A DNA stretch of 37,978 nt from an uncultured Pseudomonadota bacterium (GTDB lineage: Bacteria > Pseudomonadota > Gammaproteobacteria > Competibacterales > Competibacteraceae), in contig CAIMUS010000185.1 of assembly GCA_903844665.1 (NCBI GenBank), positions 1 through 37,978 on the forward strand, in the 5' to 3' direction. Below are positions 3,755 through 22,101 of the stretch, one piece after another (the stretch's first letter is position 1; each line of letters starts with the position of its first letter). Position numbers and translations under genes: made by a program. The notes under the pieces were generated by a model, which did no database searches, was not told where the DNA came from, and worked only from the letters and a program-made list of their open reading frames with translations.

Positions 3755-5203
3755 TCAGCCTGCCTCACTCACCGCGATGCCCAGCGCCTTGGCGACGCCT
3801 TCGCCATAAGCCGGGTCGGCCTGCAGGCAATGGCGAATGTGGCGCAACTGGATCTCGCGTGGCGCCTCGCCGATCGAGCGCGCCGTATTCTCGAACAAGG
3901 CTTGCTGCTGTGCCGGGCTCATCAGACGGAACAGCGCGCCGGGTTGCGAGAAGTAGTCCGTGTCTTCGCGGTGGTTCCAGTGATCTGCGGCGCCCTCCAA
4001 ACTCAGCGGGGGCTCGCGGTAATCCGGCTGCTCGGCCCACTCGCCCTGGTCGTTAGGCTCGTAACCGAGCGTGCTGCCGTGGTTGCCGTCAACCCGCATG
4101 GCGCCGTCGCGGTGGTAACTGTGCACCGGGCAGCGTGGGGCATTCACCGGAATCAGGTGGTGATTGACGCCGAGCCGGTAGCGCTGCGCGTCACCGTAGG
4201 CGAACAGGCGGCCCTGCAGCATCTTGTCCGGCGAGAAGCTGATGCCGGGTGGCACGTTGGCCGGATTGAAGGCGGACTGCTCGACCTCGGCGAAGAAGTT
4301 TTCCGGATTGCGGTTCAGTTCCATCACGCCCACCTCGATCAGCGGATAGTCCTGGTGCGGCCAGATCTTGGTGAGGTCGAAGGGGTGATAGGGCGCCTTC
4401 GCGGCGTCGGCTTCAGGCATGATCTGCACTTTGAGCGTCCACTTCGGGAAGTCGCCCTTTTCGATGCTCTCGTAGAGGTCGCGCTGGTGGCTCTCGCGGT
4501 CCTTGCCGATGATCGCTTCGGCGTCGGCGTCGGTCAGGTTCCTGATGCCCTGTTGCGACTTGAAGTGGAACTTGACCCAGCAGCGCTCGTTCTTCGCGTT
4601 GATGAAGCTGAAGGTGTGGCTGCCGAAGCCATGCATGTGGCGGTAGGTCGCCGGGATGCCGCGGTCGCTCATGACGATGGTGATCTGGTGCAGTGCTTCG
4701 GGCAGCGAGGTCCAGAAGTCCCAGTTGTTCTTCGCGCTGCGCAGGTTGGTGCGCGGGTCGCGCTTGACCGCGTGGTTGAGGTCGGGGAACTTGAGCGGGT
4801 CGCGCAGGAAGAACACCGGCGTGTTGTTGCCGACCAGATCCCAGTTGCCTTCCTCGGTGTAGAACTTGACGGCGAAGCCCCGGATGTCGCGCTCGGCATC
4901 GGCTGCACCGCGTTCGCCGGCGACGGTGGTGAAACGGGCGAACAGCTCGGTCTTCCTGCCGAGCTGGGAGAATATTTTCGCCCGCGTGTACTCGGTGATG
5001 TCGTGCGTGACGGTGAAGGTGCCGTAGGCGCCGGAGCCCTTGGCATGCATGCGCCGCTCGGGAATCACCTCGCGGTCGAAGTGGGCGAGCTTTTCCAGGA
5101 ACCAGACATCCTGTAGCAACTGCGGGCCCCGTGGGCCGGCGGTCATCACGTTCTGGTTATCGACGACGGGACAGCCGGCATTGGTAGTGAGTTTCTTGCT
5201 CAT
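3755..5203 (-). CDS. katA: monofunctional heme catalase
   Basis: A 482-residue small-subunit catalase that converts hydrogen peroxide to water and oxygen in the cytoplasm. Distal His53 lies in [10 protein letters not shown], the distal Asn is in [11 protein letters not shown] (about 126), and the proximal heme-ligand Tyr336 is in [13 protein letters not shown]. The length and the C-terminus fit clade-3-type catalases. I chose ATG at 5203 ([10 protein letters not shown]) because AAGGATTA precedes it and homologues begin there; an upstream in-frame start would add 21 unlikely residues. No OxyR-type site was recognised. The gene stands alone apart from a doubtful small reading frame upstream. 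The symbol is a family name; katE-type numbering could also apply. Confidence 0.95.
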
Positions 5204-9857: not shown

Positions 9858-10337
9858 ATGACAGGCGAAAGTAAAGACAGCGGCGGTACTATCAGTACTG
9901 GTGGCGGCGCTTATATTGGCGGGCGCGTCAAAGTCGGCGGCGATTTCGTCGGCCGGGACAAAGTGGTCACTGCCGGCGCAGGAGGTGTAGCCGTGGGAGG
10001 CAATGTCACCGGCGGCGCCATCGTGACCGGCAGTGGCAATATCATCAGCCAACCGCAGGGCGCTACCCTGGAAGACCTCCGCGCTCTGATCGCGGAATTA
10101 GGCCGGCTGCTACCGCAAGCCAGCCTGAACCCGGATGTAGCCGAGATGATCGAGGGCGATTACCAAGTGGTGAAGAAGCAGGCCGAGAGCGCTACACCCA
10201 ATGGCGGCATCGTCAAGACCAAGCTGAAAAGCGTGCTGGAGCTGCTGACCAGTTCGGGCAACGCGGCGGGCGCCGTGGAGAAAATCCTGTCAATCGGCAC
10301 GAAAGCGGCGCAGGTGGCGGGATTGCTGTTTCCTTGA
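9858..10337 (+). CDS. small glycine-rich partner of the NACHT protein
   Basis: A 159-residue protein in two parts. Residues 1-65 are a Gly/Val-rich repeat-like region (GGAYIGGRVKVGGDFVGRDKV, then VAVGGNVTGGAIVTG), probably a beta-roll. Residues 70-159 look alpha-helical (LEDLRALIAELGRLL, KLKSVLELLTSSG, GAVEKILSIGTKAAQVAGLL) and resemble helical tails in proteins next to bacterial NACHT/STAND NTPases. The GGDFVGRDK motif recurs as GHDFIGRDK near the N-terminus of the next gene, 23 bases downstream, which suggests a physical or evolutionary partnership. A strong GAGGAGG precedes the ATG. No enzyme motif is visible. I infer an adaptor or effector-associated role in an immune-type module; the molecular function is unknown. 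Confidence 0.8.
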   Translation: MTGESKDSGGTISTGGGAYIGGRVKVGGDFVGRDKVVTAGAGGVAVGGNVTGGAIVTGSGNIISQPQGATLEDLRALIAELGRLLPQASLNPDVAEMIEGDYQVVKKQAESATPNGGIVKTKLKSVLELLTSSGNAAGAVEKILSIGTKAAQVAGLLFP

Positions 10338-10360
10338 AAACAAACGTACGGTGAATTGTT

Positions 10361-13339
10361 ATGGACTCCCAGCCATCGAAAATAGCCAAACTTCAGGAAC
10401 AGCTTCGCGACCTGGAGAAAGTACGCCCGGTGCTGGGCGACGCCCTCACCGACCAGAAGAAAGCCGAACTGGAAGCTCGCCTGCAACCACTGCTGCACAC
10501 GGGTGGCGGTGCTGTCGTTGGCGGTGGTGTCACCGTTGGCCATGATTTTATCGGCAGAGATAAACATGAACATCACTACCACCGTGGTGAAGACCCGGCC
10601 ACCCTTCGACAAGCGGAAACCGCCTACCGCCAGAACCTCGCCAATCACTGTGACACCCTGCCACTGCGAGGAGTAGACCCGACACCCGGCGAGGGCGCCA
10701 CGGGACGGCAGCCGCTCAGCCTGGCGCAGGTTTACATCGCCCTGGACACCCAACGCCGCGCGCCGGCAACGGTCATTGCCCAGGCACTGCACCAGGCCGC
10801 CCAAGGCCAGTTGAACGGCCTGTCAGCGGCATCTTCCCCCGCTACAGCCGGTCGCGACGAAGACACCCGGCCGCTCGCCGCCCTGGAAGCGGCGATTGTG
10901 CACCGTAACTGGGTGCTGCTGGGCAAACCGGGTTCCGGCAAAAGCACCTTCGTCAATTACCTGACCCATGCCCTGGCGGTGCGCGCCTGGGAGCACCTGC
11001 CGGGCTGGCCGGAGCAGGAACGGGACGCGCTGCCGATTCAGGTGATCCTGCGCGACTTCGCCCGCTGGCTGGCCACGCAACAGCCCCTGCCGTCGGCCTG
11101 CCCGGAACTGCTGTGGCGCTTTATTACCCACGAATTGCAACAGCGCAAATTGGAACACGCCACCAAGGTCGTGGGGCAGGCGCTGGATCAGCCTGGCCGC
11201 GCGGTCGTGCTGCTGGACGGACTGGACGAAGTGCCGCCGGACGACGACCGGCTGCTGGCGCTGGTGCGGGACAGCGTGGCGGCCTTCGCCAAGCGTTACC
11301 ACCACAGCCGTCACCTGGTCACCTGCCGGGTGCTGTCCTACCAGGAACCCGGTTGGCAACTGCCGGCGGACCTGTTCCCGGCGCTGGAACTGGCGCCGTT
11401 CAACGCCGACCAGATCGACCGCTTTATCGGCGCCTGGTATACCGAAGTCGGCGTCAAATGGCAGCTGCCACCCGGTGACGCCGACCGGTTGGCGAACAAA
11501 CTACGCCAAGCCGTGCGCCGACCGAGCTTATGGAAACTGGCACCTAACCCGCTGCTGCTCACCGTCATGGCGATGGTACACACCCGTCGCAATGAACTGC
11601 CGGAACAGCGGGCGCTGCTCTATCAGAACGCCGTTGATATCCTGCTCGAACACTGGGAGCAGCAAAAAGAAGACGTCGAGGCGACGCCACCGCTGCGCGA
11701 TCTGCTGGCCGAGGTCGATCGGGACTTCAACGATCTCAAGGACATCCTGGAACGGCTGGCCTACACCACCCTGGACCAGACAGGCGCCACGCCGGACAGC
11801 GAGGATAGCGCCGACCTGCACGAATACGACCTGCTCCAGGAACTGAGAACCCTCCATCCCCGGCGCAGCTACGACTGGGCCGAACACGTGTTGGACACGC
11901 TGCATCTGCGCTCCAGCCTGTTGCTGGCGCGTACCGGAAAAGTGTTCGGTTTTCCTCATCGCACCTTCCAGGAATATCTGGCGGGCGTTCATCTGGCGCG
12001 GCTGCCGGACTTTGAGCAGGCTGCCGCCCAACGGGCCGAAGCGGCGGCGTTCTGGCGCGAGGTTATCCTGCTGGCGGTCGGCTATCTGGTCCACCAGAAC
12101 CGGGATCTGGGCAAACCTCGGCTACTGGTGGAAGAACTCTGTCCCGACCGCTCCCCGCCGAGCGACAGCGCCTGGCGCCAAGTCTGGCTGGCCGGCGAGG
12201 TGCTGCTGGAAGTGGGCCTCAACCGCATCCAGGACAGCGCCCACGGCAAAAGTTTGTTAGAACGGGTCCGCCGGCGGCTGACCGAACTGGTGGAAACCGG
12301 CGCCCTGTCCGCCCGCGAACGCGCCGAAGCGGGTGATGTGCTGGGGCAACTCGGCGATCCGCGTTTCGACCCCACTCGGTTCTATCTACCCTGCACGTAC
12401 CGGGGCCAGCCAGAGCCGCTGGCCGGCTTTATCGAAATCCCGCCGGGGCCGTTTGTGATGGGGAGTCAGGAAGGTGACAAGGATGCCTGGGAGGATAAAT
12501 CTGGCAACCCGGCAATGCTTACCACAGACTATCGCTACTGGCTGGCCCGCTATCCGGTGACGGTGGCGCAATTCCAGTGTTTCATCGAGGCGGGTGGCTA
12601 TGAAGACTCCGCTTGGTGGACGCCCACCGGTTGGTCCTGGCGGCAGGGGCAATGGGACAACCAGGTTGAAGAGGATTGGTTGCGAGATCGTTTGCGAAGC
12701 CGCCCTGTGGAACTACGCCAGGCTCCCATGGAGTGGAATGTCCAGCGTGCTTATCCCAACCGGCCGGTGGTCAATGTCTGCTGGTTCGAGGCGATGGCCT
12801 ACTGCCGCTGGCTGGAGGCGCAGGTGAAAGCGGCTCAGGTCCTGCCACTGCCGGACGGCTATGGTCTCCGCCTGCCAACGGAAGCGGAATGGGAGAAAGC
12901 GGCCCGGTGTGGGGATGCGCGTCGTTATCCCTGGGGTGATGAAGACTGGGACGAGACCCGGGCTAATATCGCACCCAGCGACATCGGCCATCCTACACCG
13001 GTAGGGATGTATCCGTTGGGGGTGACGCCGACCACGGAACTGCATGACCTCAGCGGCAATGTCTGGGAATGGACCCTGAGCCGGTACCAACCATACCCTT
13101 ATGATCCCAAGGATGGCCGGAACGATCCCGAAGCCGAGGGTTGGCCCGTCGTGCGGGGCGGCTCCTGGCTCAATCATCTGGGGTTTGCGCGCGCCGCGTC
13201 GCGTGACAGGTCTCCCCCCGACTCCTGGGATGCCAACAGCGGGTTTCGGGTGGTGTTGTCCCGCTCCTACAGCGCCGCTCCCACAGTGTTGATCGCGGCG
13301 AGGGCGCCGCTCCCACAGCGGGCTGATAATTTGCTTTAA
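10361..13339 (+). CDS. NACHT NTPase with C-terminal FGE-sulfatase domain
   Basis: A 992-residue STAND-type protein. Order: short coiled coil (5-45); Gly-rich GHDFIGRDK motif (about 60-68); helical linker with YRQNLANHCDTLPLRGVD (89-106), typical of NACHT-SUMF1 proteins; NACHT domain with Walker A GKPGSGKST (188-196) and Walker B VVLLDGLDEVP (282-292); winged-helix/helical region to about 680, including FPHRTFQEYLAG; FGE/SUMF1-like domain (about 685-968) with RLPTEAEWEKAAR, NVWEW, RGGSW and GFRVVLSR. The cysteines of true formylglycine-generating enzymes are absent after RGGSW, so this domain is probably a ligand sensor. The last 24 residues are translated from a REP repeat. Families like this are predicted NTP-dependent conflict systems. 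An antiphage role is inference. Confidence 0.9.
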   Translation: MDSQPSKIAKLQEQLRDLEKVRPVLGDALTDQKKAELEARLQPLLHTGGGAVVGGGVTVGHDFIGRDKHEHHYHRGEDPATLRQAETAYRQNLANHCDTLPLRGVDPTPGEGATGRQPLSLAQVYIALDTQRRAPATVIAQALHQAAQGQLNGLSAASSPATAGRDEDTRPLAALEAAIVHRNWVLLGKPGSGKSTFVNYLTHALAVRAWEHLPGWPEQERDALPIQVILRDFARWLATQQPLPSACPELLWRFITHELQQRKLEHATKVVGQALDQPGRAVVLLDGLDEVPPDDDRLLALVRDSVAAFAKRYHHSRHLVTCRVLSYQEPGWQLPADLFPALELAPFNADQIDRFIGAWYTEVGVKWQLPPGDADRLANKLRQAVRRPSLWKLAPNPLLLTVMAMVHTRRNELPEQRALLYQNAVDILLEHWEQQKEDVEATPPLRDLLAEVDRDFNDLKDILERLAYTTLDQTGATPDSEDSADLHEYDLLQELRTLHPRRSYDWAEHVLDTLHLRSSLLLARTGKVFGFPHRTFQEYLAGVHLARLPDFEQAAAQRAEAAAFWREVILLAVGYLVHQNRDLGKPRLLVEELCPDRSPPSDSAWRQVWLAGEVLLEVGLNRIQDSAHGKSLLERVRRRLTELVETGALSARERAEAGDVLGQLGDPRFDPTRFYLPCTYRGQPEPLAGFIEIPPGPFVMGSQEGDKDAWEDKSGNPAMLTTDYRYWLARYPVTVAQFQCFIEAGGYEDSAWWTPTGWSWRQGQWDNQVEEDWLRDRLRSRPVELRQAPMEWNVQRAYPNRPVVNVCWFEAMAYCRWLEAQVKAAQVLPLPDGYGLRLPTEAEWEKAARCGDARRYPWGDEDWDETRANIAPSDIGHPTPVGMYPLGVTPTTELHDLSGNVWEWTLSRYQPYPYDPKDGRNDPEAEGWPVVRGGSWLNHLGFARAASRDRSPPDSWDANSGFRVVLSRSYSAAPTVLIAARAPLPQRADNLL
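13262..13318. repeat. REP-like repeat overlapping the NACHT gene 3' end
   Basis: A further inverted-orientation copy of the GC-rich repeat seen at 9615-9738 lies at 13289-13318, preceded by a partial copy (13262-13284). It is translated as the C-terminal tail of the NACHT-FGE protein. REP copies thus bracket the two-gene unit. Confidence 0.8.
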
Positions 13340-19161: not shown

Positions 19162-19317
19162 GCTACCCACTTAAGACGGGACGCTTTGCAGGCTGACCGC
19201 AGAGGGGTTTCCCTGGAGCGCCGGCATCTTGCCGGCTGTTGACTGGCGCCGATGCTCTCAAGCCGGCGAGAACGCCGGCGCTCCCAGGGTCGGATTGTCC
19301 CGCCTTAAGTGGGTAGC
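19162..19317. repeat. 156-bp palindromic (MITE-like) element
   Basis: Outer arms GCTACCCACTTAAGACGGGA (19162) and its near-complement ending at 19317 match at 20 of 21 positions. Inside lies a second palindrome of REP type (GGAGCGCCGGC near 19216 and GCCGGCGCTCC near 19274). The outer arm is related to, but in reverse orientation from, the ends of the larger element at 19353-21948. No coding capacity. Confidence 0.7.
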
Positions 19318-19375
19318 CCGCCTGTAAAATTTAACCCATTGAAATTACTAACTGTCCCGGCTTAAGTGGATACCC

Positions 19376-19690
19376 CGTGGGAGTAAGAAACGAAAACATT
19401 AGGTGCACCCATTAGTTGGCTCCGGTACATCGGCCTATGGCGTCCAACAAGTGATTATATAGCTTCCGTATGTATACCACGCCCCCAAACTAGCGCACAG
19501 CGGGCGCGGCGTTCGGACATTTTTCCACGCGCCAAGGGGAAGCGTCCAACGGGCGAGCGGAAGACTAGACATTTCGATACGTTCTGTCTAATCGTGGATT
19601 CCGCTTTCCCGCCTGTCCCGCGCTGCGCTAAAAGTCGCATAATGTCATCTTCTGGAAAATCGTTCAGGGAAGGCCGGAGAGAGCCGTGGG
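19376..19690. other. non-coding left part of the repeat-bounded element
   Basis: About 315 bases with no credible gene. A weak dyad (TAGACA...TGTCTA, about 19565-19590) and a short minus-strand frame without family resemblance are present. It would be the 3' flank of the three-gene operon. Confidence 0.4.
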
Positions 19691-20119
19691 TCAGGGCTTC
19701 GCAGGGTATGCGGCGATGATGACTTGGGCGAGCTGCTCCGCCACCTGCTCGTTGAGAGCTTCATCGTAGTCCTTCACCAAGGAGTGTGATGGGTCGTCGT
19801 CTTTCTCGTCGAGTACAATGGCTACGGTGGCGTATTTCATAGCGGCGTTCTTTGCTGCACCAACATTCAAAAGCGCAAACCTAGACTTCGGGCCGACCGT
19901 GCGGCCCTTATTCACAAAGATGTCCCGAAGCGGGGGGATGGCTTCTTGCGGCGTGAGTTTTTGAAAATACTCAACCCAGTTTACCGACAACCCTTCTTCG
20001 ATCTGCCCATTTCCCTTTTTCTTGCGGCGGAATGCGGCGGGGTCAATGAAATCGCCGTCTATCGAGGCTCCCCCAACATGGCGGAATATATGATGGGACA
20101 GGTCAAGCTCGATCATCAC
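19691..20119 (-). CDS. conserved-looking hypothetical protein, third gene of operon
   Basis: A 142-residue soluble protein I cannot assign to a family. Notable segments: FRRKKKGNGQIEEGLSVNWV, SRFALLNVGAAKNAAMKYATV and EKDDDPSHSLVKDYDEALNE. The central 'LSVNW...FALLNVG...DDPSH' arrangement looks like a conserved domain rather than random sequence. There is no signal peptide or membrane segment. Its ATG overlaps the stop of the upstream gene by 4 bases (ATGA), so it is translationally coupled to it. It is the last gene of the operon inside the 23-bp inverted repeats. Function unknown. Confidence 0.75.
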   Translation of the reverse strand: MMIELDLSHHIFRHVGGASIDGDFIDPAAFRRKKKGNGQIEEGLSVNWVEYFQKLTPQEAIPPLRDIFVNKGRTVGPKSRFALLNVGAAKNAAMKYATVAIVLDEKDDDPSHSLVKDYDEALNEQVAEQLAQVIIAAYPAKP

Positions 20120-20778
20120 GCAAACGAAGCGCCAATGGCGCAGGCAACTGAAACAATGCTCTCAACCGGCTCGCTGCCGAAGTGCGGCGCCGTCAAACTG
20201 TCCCCCCGAGGTATCTCAGCAACCAGCTTGGCGAGCGGCTCACCGGTAAATTCAATAGCAACGAAATTTCTCGGGCCGTGAATCCACCGCGTGCGGAGCG
20301 TGCCGTCTGGCGTAAGGGTAATTTTGGGAAGGCCAAGTCCGGGTTGCGCCAAAAAGAAGTCGGTGAACTGACGAAGGGAAGCGGGAAGAATGTGTTCATC
20401 CTCTGCGAGTGCATCCCGGTGTAGGGCCGTTATCCGGTCAGCAATTTGCCGGTCACGCGGCGTGTTGCTGCTCAGATAGAGGGCCTGGATGGCGTCAAAA
20501 ATCTGCTGACTGTCGGTGAACTCCGGAATGATGTTGGGCGAGGCCCAGTATAGGCGTTGCAGATCGCGCGCAGTCGCTTCGAAGAGCCTTCGCGGAAGGG
20601 TCATCGTCCCGGTGAAACCGCTGCCAGGGTGCGCCCTTGCAGACAGTATATTGCGGTGGTGGTGTTCCCAACGTTGAGATGAGTAGTTCTCTGAGGTGCG
20701 GTCGAGCGACGCCGTGTTAAACATCATATCCAGTTCTGAAACACCACCATTGCGGGCATAGGTCAGCGCGGCTTCCAT
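20116..20778 (-). CDS. hypothetical protein, second gene of operon
   Basis: A 220-residue protein without a family I recognise. The first part (MEAALTYARNGGVSELDMMF) is helical. The C-terminal part (KITLTPDGTLRTRWIHGPRN, then FVAIEFTG) looks like a small beta-sheet domain. A Thr/Pro-rich middle with SSNTPRDRQIADRITALHRD follows YWASPNIIPEFTDSQQIF. There are no membrane segments. It overlaps the TIGR04255-like gene upstream by 16 bases and the hypothetical gene downstream by 4 bases. Such tight overlaps imply a three-protein functional unit. It could be the partner commonly encoded after TIGR04255 genes, but I cannot confirm that from memory. Confidence 0.75.
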   Translation of the reverse strand: MEAALTYARNGGVSELDMMFNTASLDRTSENYSSQRWEHHHRNILSARAHPGSGFTGTMTLPRRLFEATARDLQRLYWASPNIIPEFTDSQQIFDAIQALYLSSNTPRDRQIADRITALHRDALAEDEHILPASLRQFTDFFLAQPGLGLPKITLTPDGTLRTRWIHGPRNFVAIEFTGEPLAKLVAEIPRGDSLTAPHFGSEPVESIVSVACAIGASFA

Positions 20779-21584
20779 ATCGTCTCCTGCACCTGCTTGG
20801 CGGTGGCATCGAAGAACAGCTTGTAGGTAGCGTCATGGGCCGAGTCATACCAGGCCCGCGCTCCGTCCAGAGAGAGGTCACTCGGGACGCCGTAGGCCTT
20901 GAGTTCCAAGCCAACGGCAAGCTCCATGGTGTCCGCCCGACGACCGGACCGAATGGCCAAGTCAAGCAGAAGACTCGGATTTACTCGATAGGTTGCCGTT
21001 GCATTCAGCCCTGCAAACTGTCGGTCGTCGGTCTGAATGTCATAGAAGCTCGTTACCGGGGGCAACATGTTCATAAGCTGCCCTTGGTTGGCAAAAACTT
21101 CGTTGGGGGTGATGACATTGACATAGGTAAGTTCGCATCGCTGGATAGGGTCGAGCTCTCTCCCGATGAACTCCTGAATGAAGGCCTTATAGTCTTCAAT
21201 CTCCCGCCAGAAGTCTTTTATCACCGTCTCGTAGTGAGGATATTCGCTCGGCGTCGAACTAGACAAGCGCCGCCAGTTGAGCATAAACGCGTTCCGTTGA
21301 ACTTGAATGAGCGTCGGGTGATGATCACTGAAAAACCAAAAACGCGGCAGAGGGAAGACTTCGCCGGGCGCTTCCATAAGTGGCTGCGCATCGGACGGAT
21401 TAACGACTACGCCTTGCTGCTCGCAAAGAGGATATTTTTCGCGGATGCGATCCCAGTAGATGCCGATGTGTTGAGCTTTAAACTCCGGTATCGGCAGATG
21501 AAAGAGAGAAACAACAAGCTCGGTGATAGGAGGATTCTCGAACTTGATGCGCTCCTTGGTGTTTCCAGCTAGCGCGTTGGTCAT
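20763..21584 (-). CDS. TIGR04255-family-like protein, first gene of operon
   Basis: A 273-residue protein. The N-terminus (IKFENPPITELVVSLFHLPI) and the later blocks LIQVQRNAFMLNWRR, YPHYETVIKDFW, and RCELTYVNVITP match the TIGR04255 family pattern (NPPIxEAVxE, then hQhxxxxFxxNWR, then ELTYINxI). The family is widespread, variable and biochemically uncharacterised, and is often found in small operons on accessory DNA. The ATG at 21584 lacks a strong ribosome-binding site. A 7-bp palindrome CTAAGGA-A-TCCTTAG lies about 30 bases upstream and could be an operator. Base composition is less GC-rich than the flanking metabolic genes, which supports transfer. Confidence 0.8.
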   Translation of the reverse strand: MTNALAGNTKERIKFENPPITELVVSLFHLPIPEFKAQHIGIYWDRIREKYPLCEQQGVVVNPSDAQPLMEAPGEVFPLPRFWFFSDHHPTLIQVQRNAFMLNWRRLSSSTPSEYPHYETVIKDFWREIEDYKAFIQEFIGRELDPIQRCELTYVNVITPNEVFANQGQLMNMLPPVTSFYDIQTDDRQFAGLNATATYRVNPSLLLDLAIRSGRRADTMELAVGLELKAYGVPSDLSLDGARAWYDSAHDATYKLFFDATAKQVQETIWKPR

Positions 21585-21609
21585 TTGGTAACCACAATAT
21601 GTGAAGGAT

Positions 21610-21628
21610 TACTAAGGAATCCTTAGCA
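21610..21628. promoter_or_regulatory. short palindrome upstream of the TIGR04255-like gene
   Basis: CTAAGGA, one base, TCCTTAG, a perfect 7-bp inverted repeat within the presumed promoter of the three-gene operon. It may be an operator. It is too short to be a terminator. Confidence 0.35.
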
Positions 21629-21664
21629 CTTGAGCGGCCTCATACCGTCAGCCGTGAGATCGTA

Positions 21665-21832
21665 CTATGACTGATGTTGTAGCTGCGGGCAATGTCCCTC
21701 ACCTATAGCCTGTATGCAGCTCGCTCGGTATGCGATGAACCCCGCGATCAGCGCAAAGCAGCCGCCGATCAAACTCCCCCAGTCCGTCAGGAGCTTATAC
21801 CAGGTGAGGTCGAGCGGCAACCCCAAGTTCAT
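21665..21832 (-). CDS. small membrane protein, probably a truncated remnant
   Basis: A 55-residue frame (MNLGLPLDLTWYKLLTDWGS, then LIGGCFALIAGFIAYRASCIQAIGEG). The single membrane helix followed by AYRAxxIQA resembles the N-terminal anchor of longer proteobacterial proteins of the 'GxFALxAGxxAYxAGxIQA' type that continue as a coiled coil. Here the frame stops soon after the helix, so it is probably a truncated copy. It lies upstream of the TIGR04255-like gene in the same orientation, inside the inverted-repeat element. Function unknown. Confidence 0.4.
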   Translation of the reverse strand: MNLGLPLDLTWYKLLTDWGSLIGGCFALIAGFIAYRASCIQAIGEGHCPQLQHQS

Positions 21833-21960
21833 ATGGTTCCTCGCCGACTGCTTCTTGCGATTGTTGCGCATCCGGGCGGCGGTGTCAAAACCGCATAAGC
21901 GCCAGTATGTTAATTCCGCTTCAACGGGTATCCACTTAAGCCGGGACACCTTAGCCAGTT

Positions 21961-22037
21961 GTAGGGTGGGCAGCTTGCCTGCCCACGCCGGTTATCTGGG
22001 TAAAAGCTAAGGTGGGCAGACAAGCTGCCCACCCTAC
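21961..22037. repeat. 26-bp-arm inverted repeat
   Basis: GTAGGGTGGGCAGCTTGCCT begins the left arm (21961-21986). The right arm (22012-22037) is its reverse complement at 25 of 26 positions. The GTAGGGTGGGCA motif is a common interspersed palindrome in bacterial genomes. It starts 13 bases outside the 23-bp repeat. Confidence 0.85.
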
Positions 22038-22101
22038 CTATCTGGTGCTTCGAAGATGAAACAGAATGGCTTAAAGTGTCCAATGTCGCGCTGCACGGCC
22101 A

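Follow-up and report, generated by a model that had tools for sequence, protein, structure and literature searches.

A conserved three-gene operon with a TIGR04255 gene, a candidate toxin-antitoxin-like defence module, lies between facing ends of IS and MITE copies in a Competibacteraceae genome

MITEs are generally short inverted-repeat elements that occur in many copies, and Rickettsia palindromic elements are protein-coding palindromic repeats. PrrC-type nucleases sit inside type I restriction operons. The type II toxins MazF/PemK, YhaV and PIN are ribonucleases. TIGR04255 is an NCBIfam family (sporadTIGR04255) to which that library assigns no function; its model covers a single gene, it is not named in the open-access PMC texts searched, and the libraries and papers searched attach no three-gene system or effector to it. 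CmdTAC is a toxin-antitoxin-chaperone system in which CmdT carries the active-site set H-Y-[EDQ] and CmdC is SecB-like (PMC11618068). Described active-site sets of ADP-ribosyltransferases (ARTs) are H-H-h, H-Y-[EDQ] and R-S-E, with divergent forms such as RES (PMC9503650). KptA/Tpt1 is an RNA-repair enzyme (PMC6333775, PMC9503650), and the winged-helix RNA lobe of Tpt1 carries three residues of an Arg-His-Arg-Arg tetrad (PMC6333775).

The DNA analysed here is contig CAIMUS010000185.1 of an uncultured Pseudomonadota bacterium of the family Competibacteraceae (assembly GCA_903844665.1; 4.88 Mb in 348 contigs), and its full 37,978 nt are referred to as the window. A first-pass annotation had read a 2.6-kb segment of the window, enclosed by 23-bp inverted repeats, as a mobile unit whose cargo was an uncharacterised three-protein system, possibly of conflict type. 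We find that the repeats are ordinary, and that the operon between them, termed A-B-C after its genes, is previously undescribed and a candidate new variant among toxin-type conflict systems. Our main reading, in which the repeats are facing IS/MITE ends and A-B-C is a three-component toxin-antitoxin-like defence module, is given a probability of roughly 55%.

The two arms (19353-19375 and 21926-21948) are complementary as inverted repeats at 23 of 23 positions with a spacing of 2550 nt, and two further motif copies lie just outside, at 19164-19182 (minus strand) and 19297-19315 (plus strand), both as first described. Four motif matches were observed in the region against 0.05 expected from shuffled sequence. 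The first-pass annotation had set two findings against its own proposal, and one of them, a dispersed repeat, was encountered in substance: the genome holds 127 copies of the motif GTCCCGNCTTAAGTGGNTA (62 + 65). When these copies were aligned, the sequence 5' of GTCCCG, corresponding to the element interior, fell into a few conserved types, and beyond the 3' side of GGATACCC each copy had its own sequence. Because a conserved flank is present only on the GTCCCG side, the motif represents the outer end of an element, a terminal repeat that reads GGGTATCCACTTAAGNCGGGAC in the outside-to-inside direction. Searching the genome with the whole region showed element homology stopping at the motif, and found no second copy of 19378-21922; the 2.6 kb is single-copy.

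The element in question is an IS whose sole gene between the terminal repeats encodes a DUF6399 protein (PF19936; labelled 'unknown function' in Pfam and not named in the open-access PMC texts searched). A complete copy of 1.7 kb with a 545-aa frame is found on contig 338 of the same genome, and contig 130 holds a copy with an internal deletion. The terminal motif is present in one of the 95 relatives searched, and that genome contains one complete IS copy of 1724 bp with both ends and the DUF6399 protein. As no other gene lies between the ends (contig 338; locus L160, 1-5392), DUF6399 is probably the transposase of this IS, which is multi-copy and has MITEs with 8-bp duplications. The ISAzo13-type transposase family (PF07592) gave no match, a result without weight because the control genomes were equally silent.

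On the left of the operon, the last 57 bp of the IS are found at 19319-19375 (plus strand) as an end remnant whose terminal repeat is the left arm and which matches the ends of the IS copies on contigs 338 and 130. This remnant abuts MITE-A (19162-19318; 157 bp; terminal repeats GGGTATCC..GGGTAGCC), which lies outside the trio segment and is represented by about 40 copies of 81-95% identity, with homology stopping at the motif; in the search with the whole region, these roughly 40 copies matched window positions 19164-19320. The tandem of MITE-A and IS end has one further copy, on contig 21. On the right, MITE-C (21926-22044; approximately 119 bp) has the right arm as its terminal repeat and a decayed far end, and the region 21923-22044 has five other copies of 92-97% identity (two on contig 20 and one each on contigs 244, 103 and 36). 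The short elements range from 110 to 180 bp, many having both ends and no room for a gene, and their designation as MITEs is supported by the many short copies that share terminal repeats with the autonomous DUF6399 IS. They resemble MITEs generally in being short, inverted-repeat and multi-copy, and differ in that their ends are those of the DUF6399 IS. Clear 8-bp target duplications flank three MITE copies (cggcggta, tcgcagcg and gattcttg; copies L002, L013 and L024) and are not visible in many others.

The left arm ends the IS remnant to its left and the right arm ends the MITE to its right. Each 23-bp arm is the outer terminal repeat of its own, separate copy of the DUF6399 IS/MITE family, with one copy flanking the operon on each side; both arms face it from outside, bounding no mobile unit. 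The perfection of the arms, the somewhat different composition of the segment and the presence in the genome of an autonomous IS with identical ends, which the first-pass annotation had suggested looking for, would suit a 2.6-kb unit with its own 23-bp ends that a partner transposase mobilises in trans. However, the arms are oriented as the ends of outside elements, and the end of that IS, like the MITE end, is directed inwards at the 2.6 kb; IS sequence continues for about 35 bp beyond the left arm and a MITE adjoins the right one, the interior is single-copy, and no target duplication is visible at 19353/21948, where the flanks are themselves IS and MITE sequence. With conserved element sequence outside both ends, the mobile unit with a three-gene cargo was rejected, and we regard it as very improbable. 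The other adverse finding, genes conserved without the repeats, likewise applies in substance, as the trio occurs in many genomes and the motif in a single relative. There is no sign that the operon is carried by the window's repeats, and the locus serves as a caution that an operon framed by perfect inverted repeats need not be one mobile unit, since two adjacent MITE or IS copies whose ends face each other can give the same picture.

All three genes are on the minus strand. Gene A (20763-21584) encodes 273 aa and belongs to TIGR04255; gene B (20116-20778) encodes 220 aa, overlaps A by 16 nt and is a putative antitoxin on the basis of its position; gene C (19691-20119) encodes 142 aa, overlaps B by 4 nt and is a putative effector with a predicted ADP-ribosyltransferase-like fold. 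A perfect 15-nt palindrome, CTAAGGAATCCTTAG (21612-21626), lies some 28 nt ahead of gene A and, judged by its sequence, is a possible operator. The open reading frame positions confirm the three-gene operon with its overlaps as initially annotated, and the promoter-proximal palindrome was likewise recovered. The claim of a distinct base composition held in part: GC is 0.51-0.59 inside the segment and 0.60-0.70 over most of both flanks, yet the difference is modest, as the immediately adjoining sequence is at approximately 0.47-0.56. GC at third codon positions is 0.63-0.65 in the trio vs 0.68-0.85 in most neighbouring genes. An Rfam scan over the segment returned no match, positions 19376-19690 fold no better than shuffled sequences (z 0.24), and promoter and terminator scans gave no more matches than in shuffles. 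In a look for an empty site, the flanking PAS gene proved absent from close relatives, and none of the close relatives examined keeps the locus.

Gene B contains a palindromic dispersed element of 92 bp (20657-20748, minus strand) that, like the Rickettsia palindromic elements, is inserted in frame. On each side of the element stands a 7-bp direct repeat, CCGCAAT (20650-20656 and 20749-20755), and the repeat-to-repeat distance is 99 bp, or 33 codons. Known palindromic repeats occur in many copies, whereas this one has only about five in the genome, including those on contigs 140 and 151 (87-91% identity) and two partial ones, and the other copies lie outside any gene B. The 33-codon insertion might damage gene B, which may still work because the insertion lies in the variable N-terminal part; the conserved part of B is the C-terminal half.

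Protein A matches TIGR04255 with an E value of 9.6e-21 and 74.7 bits, above the curated cut-off of 30, over model positions 1-249 of 252, so that the early designation of A as TIGR04255-like was correct; like the family as a whole, the gene is sporadic. Its AF2 model (pLDDT 79) is a duplicated beta-alpha fold, for which the best PDB alignments are to phosphagen kinases and McsB catalytic domains (Z 8-9.4) and Foldseek lists AdoMetDC-like and TBP-like duplicated folds. Because identity in these alignments is only 4-10%, the fold is not taken to indicate an activity. Genes B and C matched no family above cut-off in Pfam or NCBIfam, none of the three genes had a PADLOC 2.0.0 match at E values up to 1, and sequence-profile searches of the PDB with each of the three proteins gave no convincing match. 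No antitoxin homology was detected for B. The SecB family matched none of the three proteins, and no SecB appears among the listed fold matches of A, where an absent fold match is not decisive.

The AF2 model of C was built from 38 sequences and has a pLDDT of 96.9 and a pTM of 0.90. Foldseek found no significant match to this model (best E value 0.54). With our in-house structure aligner, VIA-align, KptA/Tpt1 ranked first (Z 7.0-7.5, rmsd 2.5-2.9, 87-95 residues), followed by CC0527 (DUF952), DarT, Pierisin, AvrPphF ORF2, PltA and pertussis S1. The 31 highest-ranked PDB rows all belong either to the ART superfamily or to the DUF952 protein CC0527, and unrelated aspartate kinase domains start at Z 3.3 or less; all Z values for C are below 8. 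Because some 30 entries of one superfamily head the list, clear of the rest, the model argues for an ADP-ribosyltransferase-like fold, a statement about fold by which we do not claim membership of the superfamily.

Among 14 C sequences, a set mostly not chosen by motif, H112 is present in all and R13 in 13; S45 is found in 11, the other three aligning poorly there. The invariance of S45-F52 in a separate alignment (A2) was imposed by the search pattern and was excluded as evidence, and one candidate relative (L167) was discarded as a chance motif match within an unrelated protein. In the model, the first beta strand carries R13, the second carries S45, and a late strand begins with H112, a strand and helix order that matches the places of active residues in ARTs. 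The set R-S-H corresponds to none of H-H-h, H-Y-[EDQ] and R-S-E, its third residue being H and not E, and would be another divergent ART set. The fold proposed for C is probably an NAD+-using one.

Given that KptA/Tpt1 provides the closest folds, C might instead be an RNA-repair or metabolite enzyme of that type, in a non-toxic operon devoted to repair. In structure, C is matched best by the KptA/Tpt1 and DUF952 folds (Z 5.7-7.5, 87-95 residues), but identity is 4-14% and the conserved residues are others; within Tpt1, the alignment extends over the C-terminal lobe only, and C offers no space for the winged-helix RNA lobe. The distribution of the operon is sporadic, moreover, and its third gene is exchanged with toxins, and we consider a repair role quite unlikely.

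The first-pass annotation had also proposed asking whether the three genes co-occur elsewhere, and they do, as an ordered A-B-C operon in distant phyla. A Mycobacterium paragordonae plasmid carries, in the same order, a TIGR04255 gene (261 aa), a 180-aa gene overlapping it by 14 nt and a 142-aa gene with a 4-nt overlap. Within the class, TIGR04255 is found in 35 of 369 genomes, and B-like genes (recognised by the pattern P..pdG...W) and C-like genes follow it in eight of the loci read (L062, L082, L086, L097, L098, L099, L100 and L101). A scan for the C family across genomes yielded 37 loci and one viral contig, with representatives in Pseudomonadota, Acidobacteriota, Chloroflexota, Rhodothermota, Latescibacterota, Nitrospirota and others. 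B precedes C in nearly all of these, homologues of gene B occupying this position in 34 loci, and many have TIGR04255 or an alternative first gene before B. The nearest relative, in a Methylobacteriaceae MAG (L102), shares 59% identity in C, 53% in B and 50% in A, and its neighbours on the two sides look by eye like genes for glycogen synthase and debranching enzyme. A direct search found the window's gene A in none of the family-level relatives, single-protein scans of gene A against genome contigs and of gene B against viral contigs found no relatives, and gene B alone, searched against plasmids and 398 genomes of the phylum, was matched only in its internal repeat. A-B-C is a conserved, tightly overlapped and sporadic operon, and its widespread yet sporadic occurrence suggests horizontal spread.

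The alternative first gene, A', encodes about 217 aa, contains 'VVVTAEFHNPSILNPDFL', and was seen in the place of TIGR04255 before B-C in five loci (L104, L110, L112, L125 and L165). No sequence similarity between A' and TIGR04255 was detected, and because the comparison of A and A' profiles was not significant, A' is not called a relative of that family.

In other TIGR04255 operons, the third gene encodes PemK/MazF (E 1e-13), YhaV (E 7e-46) or, twice, PIN, and the second gene encodes a short protein at the usual place of an antitoxin. These type II toxins thus take the same third-gene place after TIGR04255 as C, to which they have no detected sequence relation. We tentatively propose, at somewhat less than even odds, that TIGR04255 is the common component of previously unrecognised three-gene defence modules in which the last gene is an exchangeable toxin, be it MazF, YhaV, PIN or a member of the new R-S-H ART-like family.

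A second TIGR04255 gene was observed in the window's own genome (L084; contig 297, approximately 3896-4645); after it come a short gene, one for a PemK/MazF toxin and one that reads as a type III-like DNA methylase. In another recurrent operon, TIGR04255 is joined by a gene for an HTH protein, about 220 aa long, and one for a 'WRQG...SHSCD' protein of 260-270 aa (L074, L076, L077, L085, L088 and L091); the one 'WRQG...SHSCD' protein tested had no Pfam match.

Occurrence in defence islands was a further check that had been suggested. Roughly one in three related loci is near restriction or other defence genes: approximately 12 of 38 C loci have restriction or related genes no more than 6 kb away, a count that has no matched control set, and about two thirds have no defence neighbours within that distance. 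PADLOC identified the arrangements hsdS-A'BC-hsdR (L125) and hsdS-BC-hsdR (L131), a type IV Mrr-like enzyme encoded immediately ahead of B (L124), and as other neighbours HsdR (L106), a type III methylase (L137), DrmC (L111 and L121) and a IIG enzyme (L133). GmrSD occurs in two neighbours, by eye at L107 and L129. With B-C between hsdS and hsdR in two loci and several others beside restriction genes, A-B-C could be an accessory of restriction systems, either a PrrC-like guard or an anti-restriction or regulatory operon, and not a free-standing toxin-antitoxin-like module. The likeness to PrrC, non-restriction genes lying between hsd genes, rests on gene placement, and the window's copy is not linked to hsd genes and adjoins no restriction system. 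Most other loci are not beside such genes either, including those among glycogen genes (L102) and after lipA (L086), and an accessory role is rather unlikely. Third genes, defence neighbours and the predicted fold of C together support the earlier suggestion of an uncharacterised three-protein system of conflict type.

Under the toxin-antitoxin-like reading, A-B-C is probably anti-phage. C would be a small effector with an ADP-ribosyltransferase-like fold, and B would restrain it, because its place in the operon is the one that small proteins take ahead of MazF, YhaV and PIN elsewhere. A, as the component common to all sister operons, may sense the trigger or stabilise B. Disturbance of A or B would then free C, and growth of the infected cell would be stopped. 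Such a module would resemble CmdTAC in having three small genes in one operon, one ART-fold product, and a possible antitoxin plus a third component; it would differ in the R-S-H set of C and in that A shows no sign of a relation to SecB. The toxin-ending operons give TIGR04255, present in about one tenth of the sampled genomes of the class and with no assigned role, a testable function. If the reading is true, a 'sporadic' family gains a function, and a small ART-like effector family spanning Pseudomonas to Chloroflexi is added.

Elsewhere in the window, at 9858-13339, two neighbouring genes have N-termini with a repeated 'GGGxxVGGxxxVGRDK'-like motif, the second gene encoding 992 aa, and this pair possibly encodes STAND-type conflict proteins.
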